A stretch of DNA of 64,000 nt from Bacillota bacterium (GTDB lineage Bacteria; Bacillota; UBA4882; UBA8346). Of the stretch, positions 3,370 through 42,246 are shown piece after piece. Under the pieces are notes generated by a model, which was not told the DNA's origin, ran no database searches, and was given only the letters and a program-made list of their open reading frames with translations. The DNA is taken from positions 1 through 64,000 of the forward strand of contig JAKOTQ010000081.1 in the NCBI GenBank assembly GCA_029776205.1, in the 5' to 3' direction. Each line of letters opens with the position of its first letter. Within the stretch, counting starts at the first letter, position 1. The translations under genes were made by a program, and so were the position numbers.

Positions 3370-5340
3370 CTATTTCAGATAGAACTCTTTAAGTGGCCGA
3401 TAGCCAAGCTCTGCCATAAGTTCATCCCAATTGGACGGCAATTCGATTTTAATGGTAGCAAAACTACCTCCAGGCATGCATTGTACTTTATTGCGATCCG
3501 GATCTCCCAAGACCAAGATCGATGTCATCCCTTTCTTCATTACCGGTACAGTATGGATTTTTTCCATTCCCGGAATTTTGGGAAACCATGGCGGCAATTC
3601 CGTCAACTCGGCTTTCTCGTCTTTCACGATCTTTTTAAAATGTCGTTCAAATGGATATTTATCAGGATCAAAAGCGCTGCCTGGATTAGCCCAGTAGTTG
3701 GCATATGCCCGTTGGTATGCAGGCCTTCTGGCTGTCGCTATCAAAGCATCCTCTAATTTTTCTTTACTTCGGTAACCTCGGGCAAGATCACGGGCCACAT
3801 ACTCGGTGATCATCACCGTACGATGAACGAAAGGACTGCCGCTACCTGTTGCGAATTGCTGTTTTTCAACCACATCCCAGGCTATCATCTGCATAATCTT
3901 CTCGGGTTGATGGGTTGCCGGAGTAAGATTGTTCCCCCACAACAAAGCAGAAGCCGCAGTCAATGTATTCTCATTCAACTGATACCCCTTCTGCACATGA
4001 TAAGGAGTCCAGCCTATTCTCAAACAAGCCTCTTCATCCTCTGCCATAACCCATGGCATCAAATAGCCGAAGGTTCCCATCCGGTCCTGCTTGACATAAT
4101 AACCACCCAGATTCAACATAGCCAGATTGATAAATCGCCCCAAAACGGCGTTTTTTGCCTCCGAAATAAGGCCCTGTCCGGAGTCGATCCCCAGTTGTCT
4201 GGCAACGGGTCCATTGACCCAGGCATACGGAATCCACGCATGGGTACTGCTCAAAGTACGCCGGTAATTCGGATCCGCCAAAGCTTTAGTAAATGCGATC
4301 AGGATCGGCATATACTCCGGCGGGCAACCGGCCATCACTCCATTGACAGCTACATGCCAAACCAACGTTTCCCGATAGGCAATTGGGAGTACAGCTACAG
4401 TCTGATCCCAGGGAAGTTCGATATATTTAAGAAATTCCTCAACTCTTTCAACCGTCGGAGGAATGATCGGCAGCCCGTCCGACCAGCGCATCTCCGTAAA
4501 ATATTTATTGACCTCATCAACCGTCCCTTTGAAAACGATGTCTCTGGCCTCTCCCACGATGGATTTTGAACGTTCTGCAATTTCCTCGGCAGTTATAGGT
4601 TTGGTCAATGCTTCGACAATTTGGGGCCAAAGGACTTCCCGGGTATTTCGGATTAACTCCTCCCGCGTATGCGACGAAAATGCCCCGGGATACGTGGCGG
4701 CCCGTGGTGCCGGCACTCCGTTGTTTACAGCTGTGGAATACACCTGTTTCACAAAGGCCGGAGCGGCGATAGTTACAGCCGGGATTCCTATGTACTCAGC
4801 AGCGATGCTCGAACCCGTTTCTTTAGGAGTACATAGACCACAACCACCATTCCCGGATATGACAGCATCGACTCCCTTTTCTTTAAGTTTCTTTTGAAAA
4901 TCAACAACCGATTTTCGAGTAATTCCGGGGCCAGGAAACGGGCCGGCAGACCCGATCTCATCCAGCAAAATCACCGTTGCCGTCGGATAGTTTTCCAGTA
5001 TCAACCGCTTGATTTCGGGATGGGTTACATAGGCCATAAAGCTTCCGCCCACAACGGCTATGGTCTTTCCCTCTAATGTATCCAAACGGGGAGCCTGAGT
5101 GATCATTTGAACCGTTTGTTTGCCGATTGGAGCCACAACAGCATATTGACCTGGTATTGAATTTGTGTCTTCAACAAAACACGTATCATCACATTCTTCA
5201 GTTAATATTTCTACTGCCGCATTATCTGTATACGGCGTAGTTTCTGTTGGTATATTGGATAATCCTGCTGTTGAAGCAGAGAAAAAGATTAAACACAGCA
5301 CGATGAAAATTGTCATGCGGTTTTTCATCTTCACCTTCAT
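3370..5340 (-). CDS. Exported UGSC-like protein with a CGLC motif
   Basis: This 656-residue protein has an N-terminal signal sequence (hydrophobic IFIVLCLIFFSASTAG at 11-26). Residues 75-245 form an alpha/beta domain (TIAVVGGSFM, GVDAVISGNGGCGLCTPKE) whose CGLC motif at 167-170 stands where the UGSC family of selenoproteins and their cysteine forms carries its redox pair. Residues 280-655 form a second domain opening WSDGLPIIPPTVERV and containing NGVMAGCPPEYMPILI, a pattern I associate with the same family. The function of the family is not established. Its start at 5340 has an AGGAGGG site seven bases upstream. The neighbours ccdA and a two-component system suggest an extracytoplasmic thiol protein kept reduced by CcdA and controlled by the adjacent regulator. 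The family name is moderately sure; the redox role is inferred. Confidence 0.6.
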   Translation of the reverse strand: MKVKMKNRMTIFIVLCLIFFSASTAGLSNIPTETTPYTDNAAVEILTEECDDTCFVEDTNSIPGQYAVVAPIGKQTVQMITQAPRLDTLEGKTIAVVGGSFMAYVTHPEIKRLILENYPTATVILLDEIGSAGPFPGPGITRKSVVDFQKKLKEKGVDAVISGNGGCGLCTPKETGSSIAAEYIGIPAVTIAAPAFVKQVYSTAVNNGVPAPRAATYPGAFSSHTREELIRNTREVLWPQIVEALTKPITAEEIAERSKSIVGEARDIVFKGTVDEVNKYFTEMRWSDGLPIIPPTVERVEEFLKYIELPWDQTVAVLPIAYRETLVWHVAVNGVMAGCPPEYMPILIAFTKALADPNYRRTLSSTHAWIPYAWVNGPVARQLGIDSGQGLISEAKNAVLGRFINLAMLNLGGYYVKQDRMGTFGYLMPWVMAEDEEACLRIGWTPYHVQKGYQLNENTLTAASALLWGNNLTPATHQPEKIMQMIAWDVVEKQQFATGSGSPFVHRTVMITEYVARDLARGYRSKEKLEDALIATARRPAYQRAYANYWANPGSAFDPDKYPFERHFKKIVKDEKAELTELPPWFPKIPGMEKIHTVPVMKKGMTSILVLGDPDRNKVQCMPGGSFATIKIELPSNWDELMAELGYRPLKEFYLK

Positions 5341-5387
5341 TCCAATTCCCTCCTGTTCTCATATTTACACCATCGTTCTTTAAACAA

Positions 5388-5421
5388 ATTATAAAAATGT
5401 TTTGTGTCCCTTTGGTGAACA
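5388..5421 (-). promoter_or_regulatory. Promoter and candidate response-regulator site (P1)
   Basis: On the minus strand the site reads TGTTCAC-N5-GGACACAAAA-N6-TATAAT. The same arrangement with identical spacing occurs at 7642-7675 before the response-regulator gene. The halves TTCAC and GACAC are direct repeats 11 bases apart, the usual layout of OmpR/PhoB-family sites, and replace a recognisable -35 box. Confidence 0.65.
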
Positions 5422-5458
5422 GGAAAAGAATATTTGATGGAGGTGTCGACACATCGCT

Positions 5459-6928
5459 TCATTCCATGTCTACATGATTAACACTGTCCAGTTCAAACCA
5501 AAATTCAACTCCGCCCTCATGATTATCCACTCCAAATTGATTACCATGGGCTTCCTGGATAGCCCGGACGATGGACAGCCCTAAACCGGTTCCACCATAA
5601 TCTCTGGTTCTGGCTTTATCCATCTTATAAAAGCTGGTCCAAATTTTATCCCGTTCTTCTTCCGGTATATGCCGGCCGGTATTATATACGAAAACTCTCG
5701 TTTTCTCACCCAACCGCCTGGCGCGTATCCTGATCGTATTGAAACCGTCTAAATGGTTCAGGGCATTAGCCAGATAGTTATTGATAATTTGCTCACAAAA
5801 ATCGATATCAGCATTGACATATAAATTAGGTTCAATCTCCGTTTCCAGGCAGATCCCTTTTTCTTTGAAAAGAATCTCATGCTTTTTTAAAACCTTCATG
5901 AGTAATACAGAAACATCGAAATTAACTCGCTCTAAAGAGATGGCTCCGGATTCGATCCGGGCCAACTCCAGAAGTTGTTTGACTAAACGATTCATCTTTG
6001 CCGCTTCATCGGTAATCACATCACAATAAAAGTTTTTGTTTTCATCATCTTCAATAACATTGACTTTTAATCCTTCGGCATATCCCTGAATTAAAGCAAT
6101 CGGTGTTTTCAGTTCATGAGAGACATTGGAAATAAACTCTTTTCGCAGATCGATCTCTTGCTGTAATTTTTCATTGGCTTGGCGAAGATTTGAAATGGAT
6201 CTTTCCAGCTGATCTGAAAGAGAGTTAATACTCTCTCCCAATTCATCCAATTCATCCCCAGTCCTTCCTGAGTACTTCCGGCTGAAATCGAGATGAGCCA
6301 TTCTTTGGGCAATATCTTTTATCTCCAAAATGGGTTTAATTAATCTCCCCGATAACAAAAATACCGCCATACCACCGACGAAGAGGGTGAATAAACCGGT
6401 AAACACCAGAAAGCGACTGGCTATAACCACACTGTCCTTAAGAGCCGCCTTGTGGGCAGTCAGCAGAAGATAATATCCATTATCCAAACGCGAAGCTAAA
6501 TAAATAATTTCAGTATTTAACCTGGGATCTTTAATTACTTTTACCTCACCAGCCTTGATGGGTTTTACATACCTGGATCTGAGTAAAAATAAAGGCCCCT
6601 TTCGACGGTTTGGAACTTTACCTTGAGATATCTGGCTGGGATTAGTCTCTCTGAAAAAAGAAGCATATTTAATCACAAAATTGTTGTCAGTTACGACAAC
6701 GCGGACCCCTTTAATGTTTTCCAGTTTTTCCAGTTGCAGTCCAATATCCGCAGAATCCTGCCGATACAGATCGTTAATAAGATGACACGTTTGAATCAGA
6801 CTATTTTTTTTACTATATAAATAATACTTCTCTAAAAGCCGGTCATTGATAAACCACGATAAAAATACGAAAAAAACGATCAAACCGGTCATTGCGAAAA
6901 AAATCTTCCATCGGATGCCCAGTTTCAT
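5459..6928 (-). CDS. Membrane sensor histidine kinase (HAMP, HisKA, HATPase)
   Basis: This 489-residue protein is a transmembrane sensor kinase paired with the response regulator just upstream. It has one membrane segment at 7-26, an extracytoplasmic sensor region of about 140 residues, a second segment at 173-194, a HAMP linker (RLIKPILEIKDIAQRM) at 195-250, and the phosphoacceptor His271 in SNVSHELKTP. An ATPase domain follows, with an N-box (NYLANALNH) and a GGTGLGLS motif near 455. Its start overlaps the stop of the regulator gene by four bases (ATGA), so the two are translationally coupled. The architecture resembles VanS/PhoR-type kinases. The ligand is unknown; the genes it most plausibly controls are the CGLC protein and ccdA, because of the shared promoter motif. 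Confidence 0.92.
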   Translation of the reverse strand: MKLGIRWKIFFAMTGLIVFFVFLSWFINDRLLEKYYLYSKKNSLIQTCHLINDLYRQDSADIGLQLEKLENIKGVRVVVTDNNFVIKYASFFRETNPSQISQGKVPNRRKGPLFLLRSRYVKPIKAGEVKVIKDPRLNTEIIYLASRLDNGYYLLLTAHKAALKDSVVIASRFLVFTGLFTLFVGGMAVFLLSGRLIKPILEIKDIAQRMAHLDFSRKYSGRTGDELDELGESINSLSDQLERSISNLRQANEKLQQEIDLRKEFISNVSHELKTPIALIQGYAEGLKVNVIEDDENKNFYCDVITDEAAKMNRLVKQLLELARIESGAISLERVNFDVSVLLMKVLKKHEILFKEKGICLETEIEPNLYVNADIDFCEQIINNYLANALNHLDGFNTIRIRARRLGEKTRVFVYNTGRHIPEEERDKIWTSFYKMDKARTRDYGGTGLGLSIVRAIQEAHGNQFGVDNHEGGVEFWFELDSVNHVDME

Positions 6929-7602
6929 TCGACCACCTCGAATTTATACCCTAAACTTCTGACGGTTTGAACATAATAACTTCTCTTTCCTAGCTTTAAA
7001 CGGAGTTTTTTGATATGGGTATCGACAGTTCGGATATCTCCAAAATAATCATAGTCCCATACAGCATTCAAAATTTGTTCTCTTGACAATGCAATGCCTT
7101 CATTATTCGCTAAATACACTAGTAATTCGAATTCCTTCGGACTCAAATCGATTCGGATACCATCGACTTGGACTACTCGTCCGCTTTCATCAATTTCTAA
7201 TCCAGCAAAGGATTTAACCGTTTTAGCTGTATTATTCGTACGCCTCAATAAAGCCCGTACTCTGGCAACCAATATCATCGGACTGAAGGGCTTGGTGATA
7301 TATTCATCCGCTCCGAGTTTAAATCCGAAAATTTCATCACTTTCCTCTCCCCGTGCAGTGAGCATGATGATGGGTACCTGTGATATTTCCCGAATTTCGC
7401 GGCAAACGGTCCACCCATCATAACCCGGCATCATAACATCCAATATAACCAAGCTGATGTTAGTTTCTTCTTTAAAAATTTCAAGAGCTCTTTTTCCGTC
7501 CTCCGCTTCAATGACGCTGAATCCGTCCTTTTTCAAAAAATCCGAAACCAGTTTTCGCATCCGCGCTTCATCGTCGGCAATTAGAATTTTGATTCCGAAC
7601 AT
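6925..7602 (-). CDS. OmpR/PhoB-family response regulator
   Basis: This is a 225-residue DNA-binding response regulator. The receiver domain has the acidic pocket (ADDE at 10-13), the phosphorylation site Asp55 in LVILDVMMPG, Thr82 in MLTAR and Lys104 in YITKPFSP. A winged-helix domain follows (DLSPKEFELLVYLANN, then DIRTVDTHIKKLRLKL and VRSLGYKFE). The gene starts at 7602 and is followed, with a four-base overlap, by its kinase. Its promoter (7642-7675) shares a 34-base architecture with that of the CGLC protein gene. This suggests it activates its own operon and that gene. Confidence 0.94.
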   Translation of the reverse strand: MFGIKILIADDEARMRKLVSDFLKKDGFSVIEAEDGKRALEIFKEETNISLVILDVMMPGYDGWTVCREIREISQVPIIMLTARGEESDEIFGFKLGADEYITKPFSPMILVARVRALLRRTNNTAKTVKSFAGLEIDESGRVVQVDGIRIDLSPKEFELLVYLANNEGIALSREQILNAVWDYDYFGDIRTVDTHIKKLRLKLGKRSYYVQTVRSLGYKFEVVE

Positions 7603-7641
7603 CGTATCACCTGCCTAATACTTCCTTGAAAACCTCTCTTT

Positions 7642-7675
7642 ATTGTAAATGATTTTTGTGTCCACTTAGTGAACA
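7642..7675 (-). promoter_or_regulatory. Promoter and candidate autoregulatory site (P2)
   Basis: The minus strand reads TGTTCAC-N5-GGACACAAAA-N6-TACAAT, upstream of the response-regulator gene. It matches P1 (5388-5421) base for base outside the spacers and keeps the same distance to the -10 box. Direct half-sites lie 11 bases apart. Confidence 0.65.
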
Positions 7676-20162: not shown

Positions 20163-20924
20163 ATGATGCCCGGTATAATAAGAAAACTAGATTCAGTAAA
20201 GAAAAATCTTGGACAAATTTATTTACATTCTTCAATCCACGATTCGGTACCGTTTGGTGTACTTCTCGCAATTGTCGGCGGATTTTTGGATGCTTATACC
20301 TTCATAACAAGAGATGGAGTTTTTGCCAATGCTCAGACCGGAAATATCGTACTCCTTGGCGTCTATGCCGCACAGGGCGATTGGGGTCAGGCTCTGGTTC
20401 ACCTTCCACCGTTATTAGCGTTTGTTATTGGAGTATTTGTTACCGAAGTTTTCAAACATCTCTCGGGAAAATTTTTCATATTGGATTGGAAACAACTCGC
20501 ATTAATCTTTGAAAGTATCATCCTTTTTATTATAGGATTTATACCTCAAACGGCTCCGGACATCATTGTTACGGTTATCATCTCATTTGTCGCTTCGATT
20601 CAAGTATGTTCCTTTTCGAAGCTGGTCGATTCTCCCTATAGTACAACCATGTCCACAGGCAACCTCCGTTCAGCGACTCAGGCTGCATATCAAGGTATTT
20701 TTCAAAAGGATCATCTAGCAGCAATCCGCTCCATACGTTATTTTACAATCATAATTTCATTTATTTCGGGAGGCTTTATTGGCGGACTAATAACCTTCAT
20801 GTTCGGCATCAAGTCAATATTTTTCACTGTATTCCTATTAGTATTTTGTGTACTATTACTGAACATTGAGAGAGCCAAAACGACGTCGGAGGCAACAGTA
20901 AAAAATCCAATCAATCATCAATAA
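20163..20924 (+). CDS. DUF1275 (YoaK-family) membrane protein
   Basis: This 253-residue protein has six hydrophobic segments and the DUF1275 signature GGFLDAYTFITRDGVFANAQTGNIVLLG near residues 40-67, with a second half carrying STGNLRSATQAAYQG. The family is widespread and its function is unknown; a transporter-like role is often guessed. The GGGAGG site five bases before the first ATG (20163) supports this start, and the next codon is also ATG. It is a single gene divergent from the amino-sugar operon and shares the intergenic region with the three LacI-type operators, so joint control is possible but not shown. Confidence 0.85.
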   Translation: MMPGIIRKLDSVKKNLGQIYLHSSIHDSVPFGVLLAIVGGFLDAYTFITRDGVFANAQTGNIVLLGVYAAQGDWGQALVHLPPLLAFVIGVFVTEVFKHLSGKFFILDWKQLALIFESIILFIIGFIPQTAPDIIVTVIISFVASIQVCSFSKLVDSPYSTTMSTGNLRSATQAAYQGIFQKDHLAAIRSIRYFTIIISFISGGFIGGLITFMFGIKSIFFTVFLLVFCVLLLNIERAKTTSEATVKNPINHQ

Positions 20925-24737: not shown

Positions 24738-27700
24738 ATGTTTATTTCTTTTAACCGTCTCAATAAGTTCTTTGCCTCTCTGCTGGTAGTCGTCATGCTT
24801 ATGACCCAGTCATTGGCACTGGTTCCTGCGTATGCAGCCACCGGCGGAAATGCTTATGGACAAAATGAGACCACGGATGATTTGACCACGAAAGAGAAAA
24901 CAGCCCGGCTTCTCAACCAAATCATCCCCCATTCCATCCAAAACAGCAAACAACAGGGTCCGGATTGGCTAAAATCCACAGATATTAGTTTAAGCTTTGC
25001 CGATGATCTTAAACCCCTGTACTCTCTGGAAACTTTCCAGCTTTTTTCGAAAGAACCCGTCGATGGCAGGCTCGGCTTCTGGCAGGGACGCTATGCCCAT
25101 CGCAGCAGTTCTGACAATACCCTCAACCTGGGCGTTGGATTACGCTGGTTATCCGAAGACAAATCCACCATCAAAGGGATCAATGCCTTTTATGACTATG
25201 GTTTTAAACACGACCTTTCCCGCCTGGGGATTGGCGCCGAATATTTCAAGAACCGAGGGGAATTTCGCTTTAACTTCTACCTCCCCCTGTCCAACGATCG
25301 ATTCACCAGTACAACCGCCCAGGCCGACGGCATCCTGTATTCCTACATCCGGGCCGTAAACGGCTTTGACTTTGAGTTGGGTACTTCGTTAGTCAATGCT
25401 CCCTGGCTTAACCTTTATGCCTCAGGGTTTCATTATGATAACAAGCACAACGCCGATGAAGACGGATACAAACTCCGTACCAAAATGCAAATTACTCCCA
25501 AACTCTCCATGGAAATGGGTTACAGCAATTCCAACCTGACCAGCGGGGACTTCTATGGGAAGATCCTGTTCCAACTGAATAATGCTGCCGGCCCGGCCCT
25601 GTATGGAAGCAATACTGAGGCAATATCCAGCGATATCAGTTACAAACTTCTGCAGAAAGTGGAACGGGAAAACGATATTAAGACCGAAACCTGGGATCAG
25701 TTGGCGGCTTATACCGGAGAGATCCATGTCACTGTCACTACGGACAGCGGTTCTCCTCTCCAGGGTGCCCTGGTCCAGGCTTATCAAAACGGCAAACCAG
25801 CCGGTATTGCAGCAACCACCGGTGCTGACGGCAAAGCGGTCTTAAAAGGCCTCTCCGCCGGGGAATATATTGTCAGAGCTGACTATTTCAGCGCCAGCGG
25901 AAACAGCCCGGCCGTGACCGTGCAAAAAGACCAGCCGGCTGACACCGCCATTTCCCTGACTGTCACCGGCGGCAATGCCAATGTCCATGTCATTGACAGC
26001 ACCGGAATCAGCATCAGCGGCGCTACCGTGACTGCCGAAGCCGTCGGCGGTTCACAGGGCAGTTGGTTCTCCATGGCCAAAAATGCCTCTACTGCTGCTT
26101 TCACAGTGACCGCAGTTACCGGTGGAGACGGTATCGCCCGGTTTACTTATTTACCGGCAGGAAACTACAGATTTACGGTTACCGACAACGCCAGAAAGAT
26201 GAAAAGCCTGGCCGTCAACGTAACAAACGGCGCCACCAGCCATGGTACCGTGGTTCTGCCGGCCAGCGGCGGCAATATTGTGGCTGTGATTTGCGATGCA
26301 ACCAGCAAAGCAGCCATCAACGGCGCTACCGTCGTGTTGAAAAACAGCTCCACCGTGATTGAAGAAAAAACTACGGACAGCGGCGGCACAGCCATTTTCA
26401 GCGGCCTGGCTGCCGGTATAACCTATACCCTAACCGCCAGCGCTGCCAATTATGACGGAAACAGTACCAATATTAAAGTGATAGATAAAGAGACGGTCGC
26501 TGCCGGGATCGCCCTGACACCTCAGAACAGCGAAGTGATCATCACCGTAACCAACGGCACCAACCCCCTTCAAGGCGCTACGGTCCGCCTGACAGGTAAC
26601 GGTGAAGACCGAACCGCCACCACCAACGATTCCGGCGAAGCGACCTTTACCAATGTACCGACAGGCACCTATACCGTTGAAGCTTCCAGGGACGGCTATC
26701 ATGCCAACACAACCAGCGTAACTGTTGTCAGCGGACAAACAGCGTCTGTAACTGTAGACATAACCCGGCAGACCGGCAGTATTACCCTGAAGGTTACTAA
26801 CGGGACCAACCCGCTCTCAGACGTTGCAGTCCGCCTGACGGGTAACGGCGTGAATCGATCTTCTGTTACCAATAATTCCGGCGAGGTTTCCTTTACCAAT
26901 ATACCGACAGGCACCTATACCGTTGAAGCTTCTAAGGACAGCTATGAAACCGTCAGCCAGGAGGTGACTGTGGTCAGCAATCAAACGGAAACTGTAACCA
27001 TCGCTCTGACCCAGATCACCACTGAGACCATCAGGGTTACTGACGGGACAAATCGGCTTAGCGGCGTAACCGTCAGTGTAACAGTCAACGGCCAGGTTAT
27101 TACAAAAACAACGAACTCTCAGGGAATGGCAACTTTTAAACTTCCGTCATACAACCTCTATACTTTCACATTCACAAAAGAAGGATATCATACCAAAACA
27201 ATCACCGTATGGGTGAACGGAGGAACCGAACTTTTTACCGAAAGCTTGACCCGTCAGACCGGAAATGCGACCATTACCGTGACTGACGGAACCAACCCGC
27301 TAAAAGGCGCTACGGTCCGCCTGACGGGTAACGGCGAGGATCGAAACGCCACCACCAATGATTCCGGTGAGGCCTCCTTTGCCAATATACCGACCGGCAC
27401 TTATACCCTCGCCGCAACGATGGACGGCTATGAAACCGGCAGCCAGACAGTGACCGTTGTCCGCCAGCAAACGGAAACTGCAACCATCGCCCTGGCCCGG
27501 GAAATGATCACCGTTCAGATTGACATTCTAAGCGATACCGGAACTAAACTGAGTTTTGCGAGCGTAAACATTACAGGCAATGGCATTAACGATACTAAAG
27601 AAACCTCCTGGAACGGCGGTGTAACCTTTACTTTGCCTGCCGGAACCTATACTCTGACTGCAACGCATACCTATTATCGAACGATCAGTCAGGAACTGGT

Positions 27701-28256
27701 TGTATCCAGGGAGAACAACACCTTTGATCTGACGACCACCCGTAAAGTGGCTGATATCGTTTTTGTCGTTCTGGACAGCGATGGCCATCCGCTGAGCGGC
27801 GCTGTAATTAGCAAAAGTTACAGCGATCCTACTGAAATCCTTGGTTATACTGACGGCACTGGCAGGTTCGAACTTAAAAACCAGCCGGCTGGCAATTACG
27901 CCTTTGACGTAACCAAAGAATTTTACAACGGTTGGACAAGCGTGGTAACAGTCAATCAGGATGGTGTTATAGAGAAAACGTTTACGTTAACCCGTCAAAC
28001 AGGCAATGTCAGGATCACAGTTAAAAACAGCAGCGAAGCGGGTATCGCCGGCGCAACGGTCACTCTGTCGGATGGTTCTGTACACATCGCCAACAGTATT
28101 GGCATTGTTAAAATGGATAATGTTCCCGCCGGTGAAATGAGTTTTACAGCGAGCGCGTCCGGCTATGTCAGTCGGAGCGTAACGAGAACAATTAACAAAG
28201 CTTACAATTCTTATGATTATAACGAGGTTACGATCACTCTGCCATTCGCCCCTTAG
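24738..28256 (+). CDS. Inverse autotransporter (intimin/invasin-like) with ten beta-sandwich repeats
   Basis: This 1172-residue surface protein has a signal peptide (residues 1-33, ending VPAYAA). Residues about 65-295 form an inverse-autotransporter beta-barrel: YSLETFQLFSKEPVDGRLGF, NLGVGLRWLSEDKSTIKGIN, AFYDYGFKHDLSRLGIGAEY and TKMQITPKLSMEMGYS are characteristic. A passenger of ten carboxypeptidase-regulatory/Ig-like repeats of about 80 residues follows to the C-terminus, with the pattern GTNPLxGATVRLTGNG...GTYTVEA. No LysM domain precedes the barrel, unlike most intimins. The barrel should sit in an outer membrane with the passenger displayed outside. AAGGAGG lies seven bases before ATG 24738, and a terminator follows. 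Such proteins are adhesins; the ligand here is unknown. Confidence 0.88.
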   Translation: MFISFNRLNKFFASLLVVVMLMTQSLALVPAYAATGGNAYGQNETTDDLTTKEKTARLLNQIIPHSIQNSKQQGPDWLKSTDISLSFADDLKPLYSLETFQLFSKEPVDGRLGFWQGRYAHRSSSDNTLNLGVGLRWLSEDKSTIKGINAFYDYGFKHDLSRLGIGAEYFKNRGEFRFNFYLPLSNDRFTSTTAQADGILYSYIRAVNGFDFELGTSLVNAPWLNLYASGFHYDNKHNADEDGYKLRTKMQITPKLSMEMGYSNSNLTSGDFYGKILFQLNNAAGPALYGSNTEAISSDISYKLLQKVERENDIKTETWDQLAAYTGEIHVTVTTDSGSPLQGALVQAYQNGKPAGIAATTGADGKAVLKGLSAGEYIVRADYFSASGNSPAVTVQKDQPADTAISLTVTGGNANVHVIDSTGISISGATVTAEAVGGSQGSWFSMAKNASTAAFTVTAVTGGDGIARFTYLPAGNYRFTVTDNARKMKSLAVNVTNGATSHGTVVLPASGGNIVAVICDATSKAAINGATVVLKNSSTVIEEKTTDSGGTAIFSGLAAGITYTLTASAANYDGNSTNIKVIDKETVAAGIALTPQNSEVIITVTNGTNPLQGATVRLTGNGEDRTATTNDSGEATFTNVPTGTYTVEASRDGYHANTTSVTVVSGQTASVTVDITRQTGSITLKVTNGTNPLSDVAVRLTGNGVNRSSVTNNSGEVSFTNIPTGTYTVEASKDSYETVSQEVTVVSNQTETVTIALTQITTETIRVTDGTNRLSGVTVSVTVNGQVITKTTNSQGMATFKLPSYNLYTFTFTKEGYHTKTITVWVNGGTELFTESLTRQTGNATITVTDGTNPLKGATVRLTGNGEDRNATTNDSGEASFANIPTGTYTLAATMDGYETGSQTVTVVRQQTETATIALAREMITVQIDILSDTGTKLSFASVNITGNGINDTKETSWNGGVTFTLPAGTYTLTATHTYYRTISQELVVSRENNTFDLTTTRKVADIVFVVLDSDGHPLSGAVISKSYSDPTEILGYTDGTGRFELKNQPAGNYAFDVTKEFYNGWTSVVTVNQDGVIEKTFTLTRQTGNVRITVKNSSEAGIAGATVTLSDGSVHIANSIGIVKMDNVPAGEMSFTASASGYVSRSVTRTINKAYNSYDYNEVTITLPFAP
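26548..27440 (+). repeat. Near-identical DNA repeats in the autotransporter passenger
   Basis: Passenger repeats 4, 5 and 7 (roughly 26545-26705, 26800-26950 and 27280-27430) are closely similar at the DNA level as well as in protein. All have ACNGGNACCAACCC, CGCCTGACRGGTAACGG and GGCACYTATACC. This is the expected source of repeat-number variation by recombination. Confidence 0.7.
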
Positions 28257-40962: not shown

Positions 40963-42144
40963 TCACTGCCTCATCTCCCCGATCTTGACGGTGGTCCGGT
41001 ACTTTTTATCGTTACGGTAATACTCAATTTTCAACGGAGTACCTACCTTATGAGTTGCAGTTATCTCCCGAACCAAATCAGTATCTGTAATCTTGGTTCC
41101 ATCGATGGACACCAGAATATCTCCAGGTCTAAGTCCGGCCTTATCTGCCTCACTCCCCCGAAGCACTTTGGCGATAAAAATGCCCGATTTCACCGGCAAT
41201 TCCTGCCCTATCCGGGTTTCGAGGATCCGGCAGTTATCCTCCGTAAAATGAACATAAGCGATCCCAAGGCCCGGCCGGGAAACATAACCCCGTTCAATCA
41301 ACTGGGCAGCAACACTTCGTGCCATATTGCTAGGAATCGAAAAACCAATCCCTTGAGATTTGGCTGCGATTAATGTGTTGATTCCGATAACCTGGCCTGC
41401 CGAGTTTAACAACGGCCCCCCGGAGTTTCCCGGATTAATCGGGGCATCGGTCTGAATCATATTTCGCAGCCTGATTTCATCACTGACATCGATTACTCGG
41501 CCTTTGGCGCTAACCACGCCAACCGTCACGGTATTATTCAGACTTTCCTGTAAAGGATTACCAATAGCAATAGCAGTCTGTCCCACTTGGACTTTTTCGG
41601 AATCGCCCCATTCCGGAACTGTCAGATTATTGTGGTTGATCTTTAAAACCGCCAAATCTGTCTGGGGATCCACCCCAACAATTTTCGCCGGATAAGATTT
41701 ACCATCCGATAACATCACCACAATCTTGTCAACGATCCCGGAATCACCATTGACCACATGATTGTTGGTCAAAATATAACCGTCTTTCCGAAAGACCACC
41801 CCAGAACCCAGCCCTTGAATATTCCGAATCTCAGGACCGCTGAAAAAATCAAAATCCTCGACCAGCGTATTGGTGGTTATCATCACCACAGACGGCCCAA
41901 TCCGGTTCACGACATCAATAATGTTCTTCTCATAATCATTCATCGTTGAAGCCTGTGTCTGAGCCTGGGACTGAGTTTGGATTTGAATAAACGGTTCCGA
42001 TGAATTTACCAGCAATTGGCCCAAACCTGTATATTTAATGGCCAAAATGACTAAAAAAGCAGCAATGGTCCCGGAAATAAGCGCGGTGAAAATATATGGA
42101 ATTCTCTCCCGAGGGGTATGGCTGTCAAAACGAAACTCGTTCAC
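40963..42144 (-). CDS. htrA: HtrA/DegP-like membrane-anchored serine protease
   Basis: This protein of about 393 residues is an S1C-type protease that degrades or refolds damaged exported proteins. It has one N-terminal membrane segment (IFTALISGTIAAFLVILAI, about 18-36), a Gln/Thr-rich linker, a trypsin-like domain with His129 (LTNNHVV), Asp163 (TDLAVLK) and Ser241 (PGNSGGPL), and one PDZ domain (SGIFIAKVLRGSEADKAGLRPGDILVSI). The catalytic triad is complete. The start is probably the GTG at 42144, nine bases after GGGAGG; a TTG two codons upstream is possible. The family is under stress control in Bacillus; no CssR-like box is obvious. Confidence 0.93.
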   Translation of the reverse strand: MNEFRFDSHTPRERIPYIFTALISGTIAAFLVILAIKYTGLGQLLVNSSEPFIQIQTQSQAQTQASTMNDYEKNIIDVVNRIGPSVVMITTNTLVEDFDFFSGPEIRNIQGLGSGVVFRKDGYILTNNHVVNGDSGIVDKIVVMLSDGKSYPAKIVGVDPQTDLAVLKINHNNLTVPEWGDSEKVQVGQTAIAIGNPLQESLNNTVTVGVVSAKGRVIDVSDEIRLRNMIQTDAPINPGNSGGPLLNSAGQVIGINTLIAAKSQGIGFSIPSNMARSVAAQLIERGYVSRPGLGIAYVHFTEDNCRILETRIGQELPVKSGIFIAKVLRGSEADKAGLRPGDILVSIDGTKITDTDLVREITATHKVGTPLKIEYYRNDKKYRTTVKIGEMRQ

Positions 42145-42246
42145 CGGCAAAAACCTCCCTAATTTAAAGCCGTCAGCCGACGGATATCCGCCATAAAGCG
42201 GCCAACTTAACCTTTCATGGATATTTAAATTAACGTTAATCCTTTT

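Follow-up and report, generated by a model that had tools for sequence, protein, structure and literature searches.

The scsABCD genes form a DsbD-like/thioredoxin-like operon, and the CpxR box has the form GTAAA-N5-GTAAA. Envelope redox homeostasis in Salmonella is served by CpxR, which switches on scsABCD (PMC11790278). In B. subtilis, CssR, whose canonical box is quoted in PMC6749698 as TTTTCACA, links envelope stress to the thiol-stress regulator Spx via YirB (PMC6057675). In Streptomyces, htrA genes are controlled by CutS, which monitors disulfide status through a pair of extracellular cysteines (PMC12802291). The CpxR-scsABCD and CssR-YirB-Spx precedents thus make an envelope-stress two-component system with a thiol output a known kind of wiring. 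An earlier note on the locus studied here, which knew of no described system of this kind, put the case too strongly, as CssRS, CpxAR and the control of scsABCD by CpxR have all been described.

We analyzed a stretch of 64,000 nucleotides (hereafter the window) from an uncultured two-membraned relative of Clostridia, in which genes for a two-component system lie beside those for an exported UGSC-family protein and CcdA (Table 1). TolC-type OEP proteins are encoded in all 29 genomes of the class, and the window itself encodes an inverse autotransporter (24738-28256, plus strand; PF11924 IAT_beta) with about ten carboxypeptidase-regulatory-like repeats; together these mark the host as diderm. 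Profile matches agree with the earlier calls of the response regulator, the kinase, CcdA and the UGSC domain, with one correction: the Pfam number given for the last, PF20696, was wrong and should read PF24696.

Table 1. Genes and promoter elements of the two operons, in window coordinates (RR, response regulator; HK, histidine kinase)
Feature	Position	Strand	Details
CcdA (DsbD transmembrane domain), 247 aa	2554..3297	minus	PF02683, 58.2 bits; two Cys (C23, C144)
Exported UGSC-family protein, 656 aa, Cys form	3370..5340	minus	PF24696, 60.5 bits against a gathering score of 25
RR-box promoter of UGSC-ccdA operon	5388..5421	minus	TGTTCACCAAAGGGACACAAAACATTTTTATAAT; TGTTCAC-N5-GGACACAAAA-N6-TATAAT
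Additional degenerate half-sites before the UGSC box, in phase at 11 bp	5422..5441	minus	TTCTT at -11, TCCAT at -22
Sensor histidine kinase, 489 aa	5459..6928	minus	two TM helices, HAMP, HisKA, HATPase
Response regulator, OmpR/PhoB family, 225 aa	6925..7602	minus	PF00072, PF00486
RR-box promoter of RR-HK operon	7642..7675	minus	TGTTCACTAAGTGGACACAAAAATCATTTACAAT; TGTTCAC-N5-GGACACAAAA-N6-TACAAT; putative autoregulatory site

Two promoters with an identical layout had been reported in the earlier note, and both were found as written, one upstream of the UGSC gene and ccdA and the other upstream of the response regulator gene. When up to three mismatches are allowed, the 22-base part of this layout has three matches in the window (0.23 expected), of which the exact ones are the two promoters, and the 2.73-Mb window genome holds no further exact copy of it. 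The third match, at 20844 with two mismatches, was rejected, as it lies within an open reading frame and scores 4.7 bits, compared with 40-44 for the real sites.

The 11-base direct repeat described in the earlier note is borne out by the related sites, in which a period of 11 bp is the highest of all direct-repeat offsets, with a mean of 4.7 of 8 identical positions in the class and 5.9 of 8 in the wider phylum. At one locus (L136), the unit TGTTCACA stands in two copies 11 bp apart; this unit is a single base from the quoted CssR box, and the repeats of the window system are likewise spaced by 11 bp. We write the site consensus of the proposed regulator box as TGTTCAC-N4-TGGACACA. In every class site, 9 bases separate GACACA from the -10 hexamer; thus, the box ends 9 bases before the -10 and stands in for the -35 element, an arrangement known for PhoB-type activation. 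Degenerate extra half-sites at -11 and -22 tend to occur in target promoters and are mostly absent from autoregulatory ones, a weak trend. At -11 and -22 the mean match to TTCAC reaches 2.3-2.7 of 5, compared with ~1.3 at most other offsets, and the HtrA promoter of locus L132 carries four half-sites in phase. An inverted-repeat reading of the site was rejected, since half-site information profiles fit a direct repeat (r = 0.61) and not a palindrome (r = -0.79), and since period 11 beats all other offsets both in the class and in the wider phylum. Palindrome-like copies do exist (TGTTCA-N5-TGAACA in genomes G002 and G006), and a six-base test did not separate the two readings (3.75 against 3.94 of 6).

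Whole genomes, all of them draft assemblies and mostly MAGs, were searched with the core pattern TTCAC-N6-GACACAWA-N4..8-TWNAAT and, as a control, with the reversed pattern. Four genomes belonging to three genera (the window genome, G000, together with G009, G020 and G021) each have exactly two matches, one before the RR-HK operon and one before the UGSC gene. The pattern has no match in five genomes without the two-component system (G001, G007, G010, G014 and G059), and its reverse has none in any genome of this search. Two genomes provide natural controls: G059 encodes a 78% identical UGSC protein and has neither the two-component system nor the site, and in G009 the two-component system and the UGSC operon are on different contigs, with the site kept at both. 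Alignments place the site in a near-identical island of ~32 bp within otherwise diverged upstream DNA, as seen at the UGSC promoters of G000, G009 and G021, while the site of the RR-HK promoter is conserved in G009, G020, G021, G006, G002 and several genomes elsewhere in the phylum. The comparison of promoters at homologous loci, named beforehand as a possible refutation, therefore found the repeat conserved in related genomes. The response regulator is 66-79% identical in relatives, with an almost invariant DNA-recognition region.

The arrangement of these genes varies among relatives. Two loci with relatives at 76-78% identity (L006 and L007) hold RR, HK, UGSC, ResA-like and CcdA genes in one cluster, and a third (L005) holds UGSC, ResA-like and CcdA genes without RR-HK. 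The ResA-like thioredoxin of these relatives is a weak ResA/StoA match; no thioredoxin gene lies between the UGSC gene and ccdA in the window, and a 47% identical one is found elsewhere in the genome. UGSC homologues that are 54-78% identical stand without ccdA and the two-component system in Bacteroidales, Treponema and DTU084, so that CcdA is not an obligate partner. We also observed that the UGSC protein of L069/L010 (G059, from another class) is 76-78% similar, as high as within the window's class. The G059 gene has no two-component system or ccdA and a transposase-like gene nearby, and horizontal transfer is possible.

How far the site extends beyond these operons was assessed by scanning the 29 class genomes for TTCAC-N5-GRACACA-N9-TANAAT with up to two mismatches. 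The eight genomes with a homologue of the kinase contain 30 sites (reversed control, 7), and the 21 without the two-component system contain 9 (reversed control, 10; Fisher p = 0.012 between the two sets); sites with no or one mismatch occur only in the former. The consensus was built in part from ten of these sites, whose counts are therefore circular; the informative sites are the remaining ones. Sites that were not used for the consensus stand just upstream of HlyD-AcrB(-TolC) RND operons in G002, G003, G006 and G008 and of a TolC-HlyD-MacB operon in G009. In G006, TolC-MacAB is preceded by a site that went into the consensus, as is a Spy/CpxP-like gene (PF13801/PF07813) in G009.

Outside the class, homologues of the kinase sensor are present in 54 of 398 phylum genomes, and in 12 of the 16 two-component loci read there a site outscores all of 74 null stretches. 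Where loci were read in detail, the sites precede the response regulator gene or a neighboring one; an HtrA-like Trypsin_2 gene with a site lies beside the two-component system in L132 and L142, and an HlyD gene has a site in L131. Genes for small exported proteins that match DUF2680 (PF10925), some weakly and some clearly, also recur beside the two-component system in L128, L131, L133 and L127, and these DUF2680-type proteins are possible Spy-like partners.

The window genome presents a far narrower picture. A whole-genome search with up to two mismatches returned the two sites only, and weight-matrix scans gave none at five TolC-type loci, at a TlpA-like locus or upstream of htrA (40963-42150 in the window), so that no efflux, htrA or spy-like gene of this genome was found with a site. 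A larger regulon in the window genome was rejected, as these searches gave nothing beyond the two sites.

The output protein consists of a signal peptide, a disordered CX3C arm (C50 and C54), a UGSC domain (residues 68-246) and a C-terminal domain (residues ~266-656). Its score of 41.6 bits against the NCBIfam equivalog NF041046, below the cut-off of 125, makes it by sequence a divergent relative rather than the equivalog itself. The UGSC models match 26 of 27 members, a few of which also weakly match GrdF, PrdB or GrdB. The active site is C167-G-L-C170, and C167, encoded by a TGT codon, aligns with the TGA/Sec of the homologues' UxxC; the window protein is thus the Cys form and not a selenoprotein. 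In all exported UGSC members, the mature chain begins with a short arm that contains cysteines. In the predicted model (pLDDT 86 overall), residues 26-62 fall below 50 and are hence flexible, and from sequence and model it is a natural inference that the arm may act as a mobile dithiol between CcdA/thioredoxin and the active site. The C-terminal half, ~390 residues with a pLDDT of 87, has no credible structural match in the PDB with either the whole-protein or the C-terminal model and no sequence relative there; as judged from these comparisons, it is novel and without a solved relative.

Other UGSC loci add some observations. Non-exported paralogues in L041, L051 and L057 end in a CX4C tail (CKDGIC, CADGSC), and the tail and the N-terminal cysteine arm are apparently alternative placements of a mobile dithiol. 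In L063 (G328:C1:364001-384000), several UGSC-type genes are clustered around selB and selD genes. In L068 (G325:C1:2571000-2587000), a Sec-UGSC gene adjoins glycine/sarcosine-reductase-like genes (GrdA/GrdE/GrdB-like, GrdF-like and GrdG-like), with thioredoxin reductase/thioredoxin and apparent TRAP transporter genes nearby, a neighborhood that hints at UGSC proteins acting in reductive-cleavage systems.

The partner of the UGSC protein in the operon is the short form of CcdA without periplasmic domains, whose two cysteines are its only ones. Against the TsoB selenoprotein and DsbD models (rhodanese or DsbD fusion) it stays below the cut-offs, at 51.5 of 805 and 32 of 330 bits. In the kinase, the extracytoplasmic domain spans ~140 residues, and no PDB entry is related to it in sequence. 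The window kinase is exactly seven residues shorter than all six aligned homologues between the HAMP linker and HisKA, equal to one coiled-coil heptad.

The sequences directly show the common site, its restriction to two operons of the window genome, the conservation of this site, and its position ahead of efflux, Spy-like and HtrA-like genes in relatives, and these findings support a predicted circuit, autoregulated, in which this site joins the RR-HK and UGSC-ccdA operons. The efflux-pump, Spy/CpxP-like and HtrA-like targets in relatives are best read, from their sequence families, as the signature of envelope or secretion stress; because the window genome shows no site at genes of the efflux, htrA or spy-like kinds, this reading rests on the relatives. 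We infer that this response regulator is the binder of the box and an activator, and the same holds for what is proposed below on the signal, the route of the electrons and the task of the enzyme. Overall, we consider it probable that the locus encodes a self-regulating two-component system for envelope stress whose output is thiol repair, acting through the direct-repeat box and through periplasmic reduction by the UGSC protein.

Such a circuit might operate as follows. A disturbed cell envelope would cause the kinase to phosphorylate the OmpR/PhoB-family regulator, a dimer of which would settle on the 11-bp direct repeat, 9 bases before the -10, and activate transcription in the manner of PhoB. 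The predicted targets are the regulator's own operon and the operon for the exported UGSC-type dithiol protein and CcdA. CcdA would move electrons outward from cytoplasmic thioredoxin, in relatives through the co-encoded ResA-like thioredoxin, and from there the flexible CX3C arm would probably hand them on to the CGLC site. With these electrons the UGSC protein would reduce some oxidized or damaged periplasmic substrate. More tentatively, we suggest that an envelope-stress regulon found across the phylum may have shrunk in this diderm Bacillota lineage to a single output, a GrdB-like exported UGSC reductase that CcdA charges via the N-terminal dithiol arm and that repairs or detoxifies oxidized periplasmic substrates, a proposal we regard as plausible but less likely than not. 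If true, it would give the UGSC family its first physiological role and regulation, and would define a new class of periplasmic reductase.

The regulon of the relatives, made up mostly of efflux pumps, would also fit a system that senses a toxic metal, metalloid or organic electrophile, with relatives exporting it by RND/MacAB pumps and the window lineage reducing it outside the cell via the UGSC protein. We consider this unlikely: the sensor domain has no evident metal-binding motif, and the HtrA-like targets suit protein damage better, even though the Spy-like target also matches Metal_resist (PF13801) and UGSC is related to the GrdB/PrdB reductases, which cleave small molecules.

Lower still we place the redox-sensing module of the earlier note, in which the thiol supply would be adjusted by a kinase that gauges redox conditions outside the cytoplasm, either by itself or by way of the UGSC protein. 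The sensor domain of the kinase has a single cysteine, C48, which no homologue shares, and no cysteine is conserved across seven homologues, which does not support a CutS-like disulfide sensor. Moreover, sites of the same regulator family occur at pumps and proteases in relatives, even in those without UGSC or ccdA. Nevertheless, the thiol module is the sole other detectable target in the window genome, and the example of CutS shows that a single signal can stand for both redox and secretion stress (PMC12802291). Of the earlier proposal, the autoregulated circuit is upheld by phylogenetic footprinting that includes unlinked operons, and the redox-sensing part is not supported, given the lack of a conserved sensor cysteine; the placement of the relatives' regulator family over efflux, Spy/CpxP-like and HtrA-like genes points to envelope or secretion stress.

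Finally, we give almost no credence to the view that the two promoters are not regulated together and share only housekeeping elements or a recent duplication: both copies have a good -10 box and an extended-promoter consensus could look alike, but there are two matches per genome, always at these operons, in four genomes of three genera, the conserved island stands amid diverged intergenic DNA, the site is missing where the two-component system is missing, the flanks of the two copies are unlike each other, and genome scans exclude the box at many unrelated promoters.

The envelope-stress reading matters in several respects. UGSC is an abundant (seleno)protein family without a known function, and the regulatory link offers it a setting, envelope stress, and a likely electron donor. 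The site also marks out a family of regulators present in some of the Bacillota, diderms among them, with envelope quality control and efflux as candidate targets, and it opens the envelope-stress response to study in outer-membrane organisms of Firmicute ancestry.

Compared with described proteins, the output resembles the fusion of UGSC with 'Unknown_1' from the GOS selenoproteome (PMC2398784) in having a UGSC domain joined to a second domain and a CGLC that aligns with UGSC. It differs from the UGSC (seleno)protein family in its Cys in place of Sec, its signal peptide and its N-terminal CX3C arm, and in a gene that shares an operon with ccdA under a promoter predicted to answer to a two-component system. 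With GrdB, PrdB and GrdF of the glycine, proline and sarcosine reductases it shares a weak sequence relation around the UXXC motif, but it is exported, and its locus holds no Grd/Prd complex partners.

As to the regulators, the window kinase differs from CutS-type thiol-sensing kinases in lacking two conserved extracellular cysteines. Like CpxAR/BaeSR of Gram-negatives, this appears to be an envelope-stress family over RND/TolC pumps, Spy/CpxP and HtrA/DegP, yet its box is another one and its proteins score far below the equivalog cut-offs (BaeR 188.9 of 380, CpxR 149.7 of 341, CpxA 106 of 486 and BaeS 134 of 500). Like CssRS, which controls secretion stress in Bacillus subtilis, it appears to be an OmpR-family system with the same box before its own operon and its target, hence predicted to be autoregulated, and it has HtrA-type targets in relatives (L132 and L142). 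Unlike CssRS, it leaves the window genome's htrA without a site and targets a UGSC/CcdA thiol module, in a diderm host with TolC whose relatives have a regulon of mostly efflux genes. Given the targets in relatives and a repeat unit that differs by one base from the quoted CssR box, the window system may be called CssRS/CpxAR-like in function, a likeness that makes no claim to membership; the 25 best NCBIfam matches include no CssR or CssS model. What is new relative to these systems is the UGSC/CcdA output, the regulator family with its box, and the near-exclusive two-site regulon of the window lineage.
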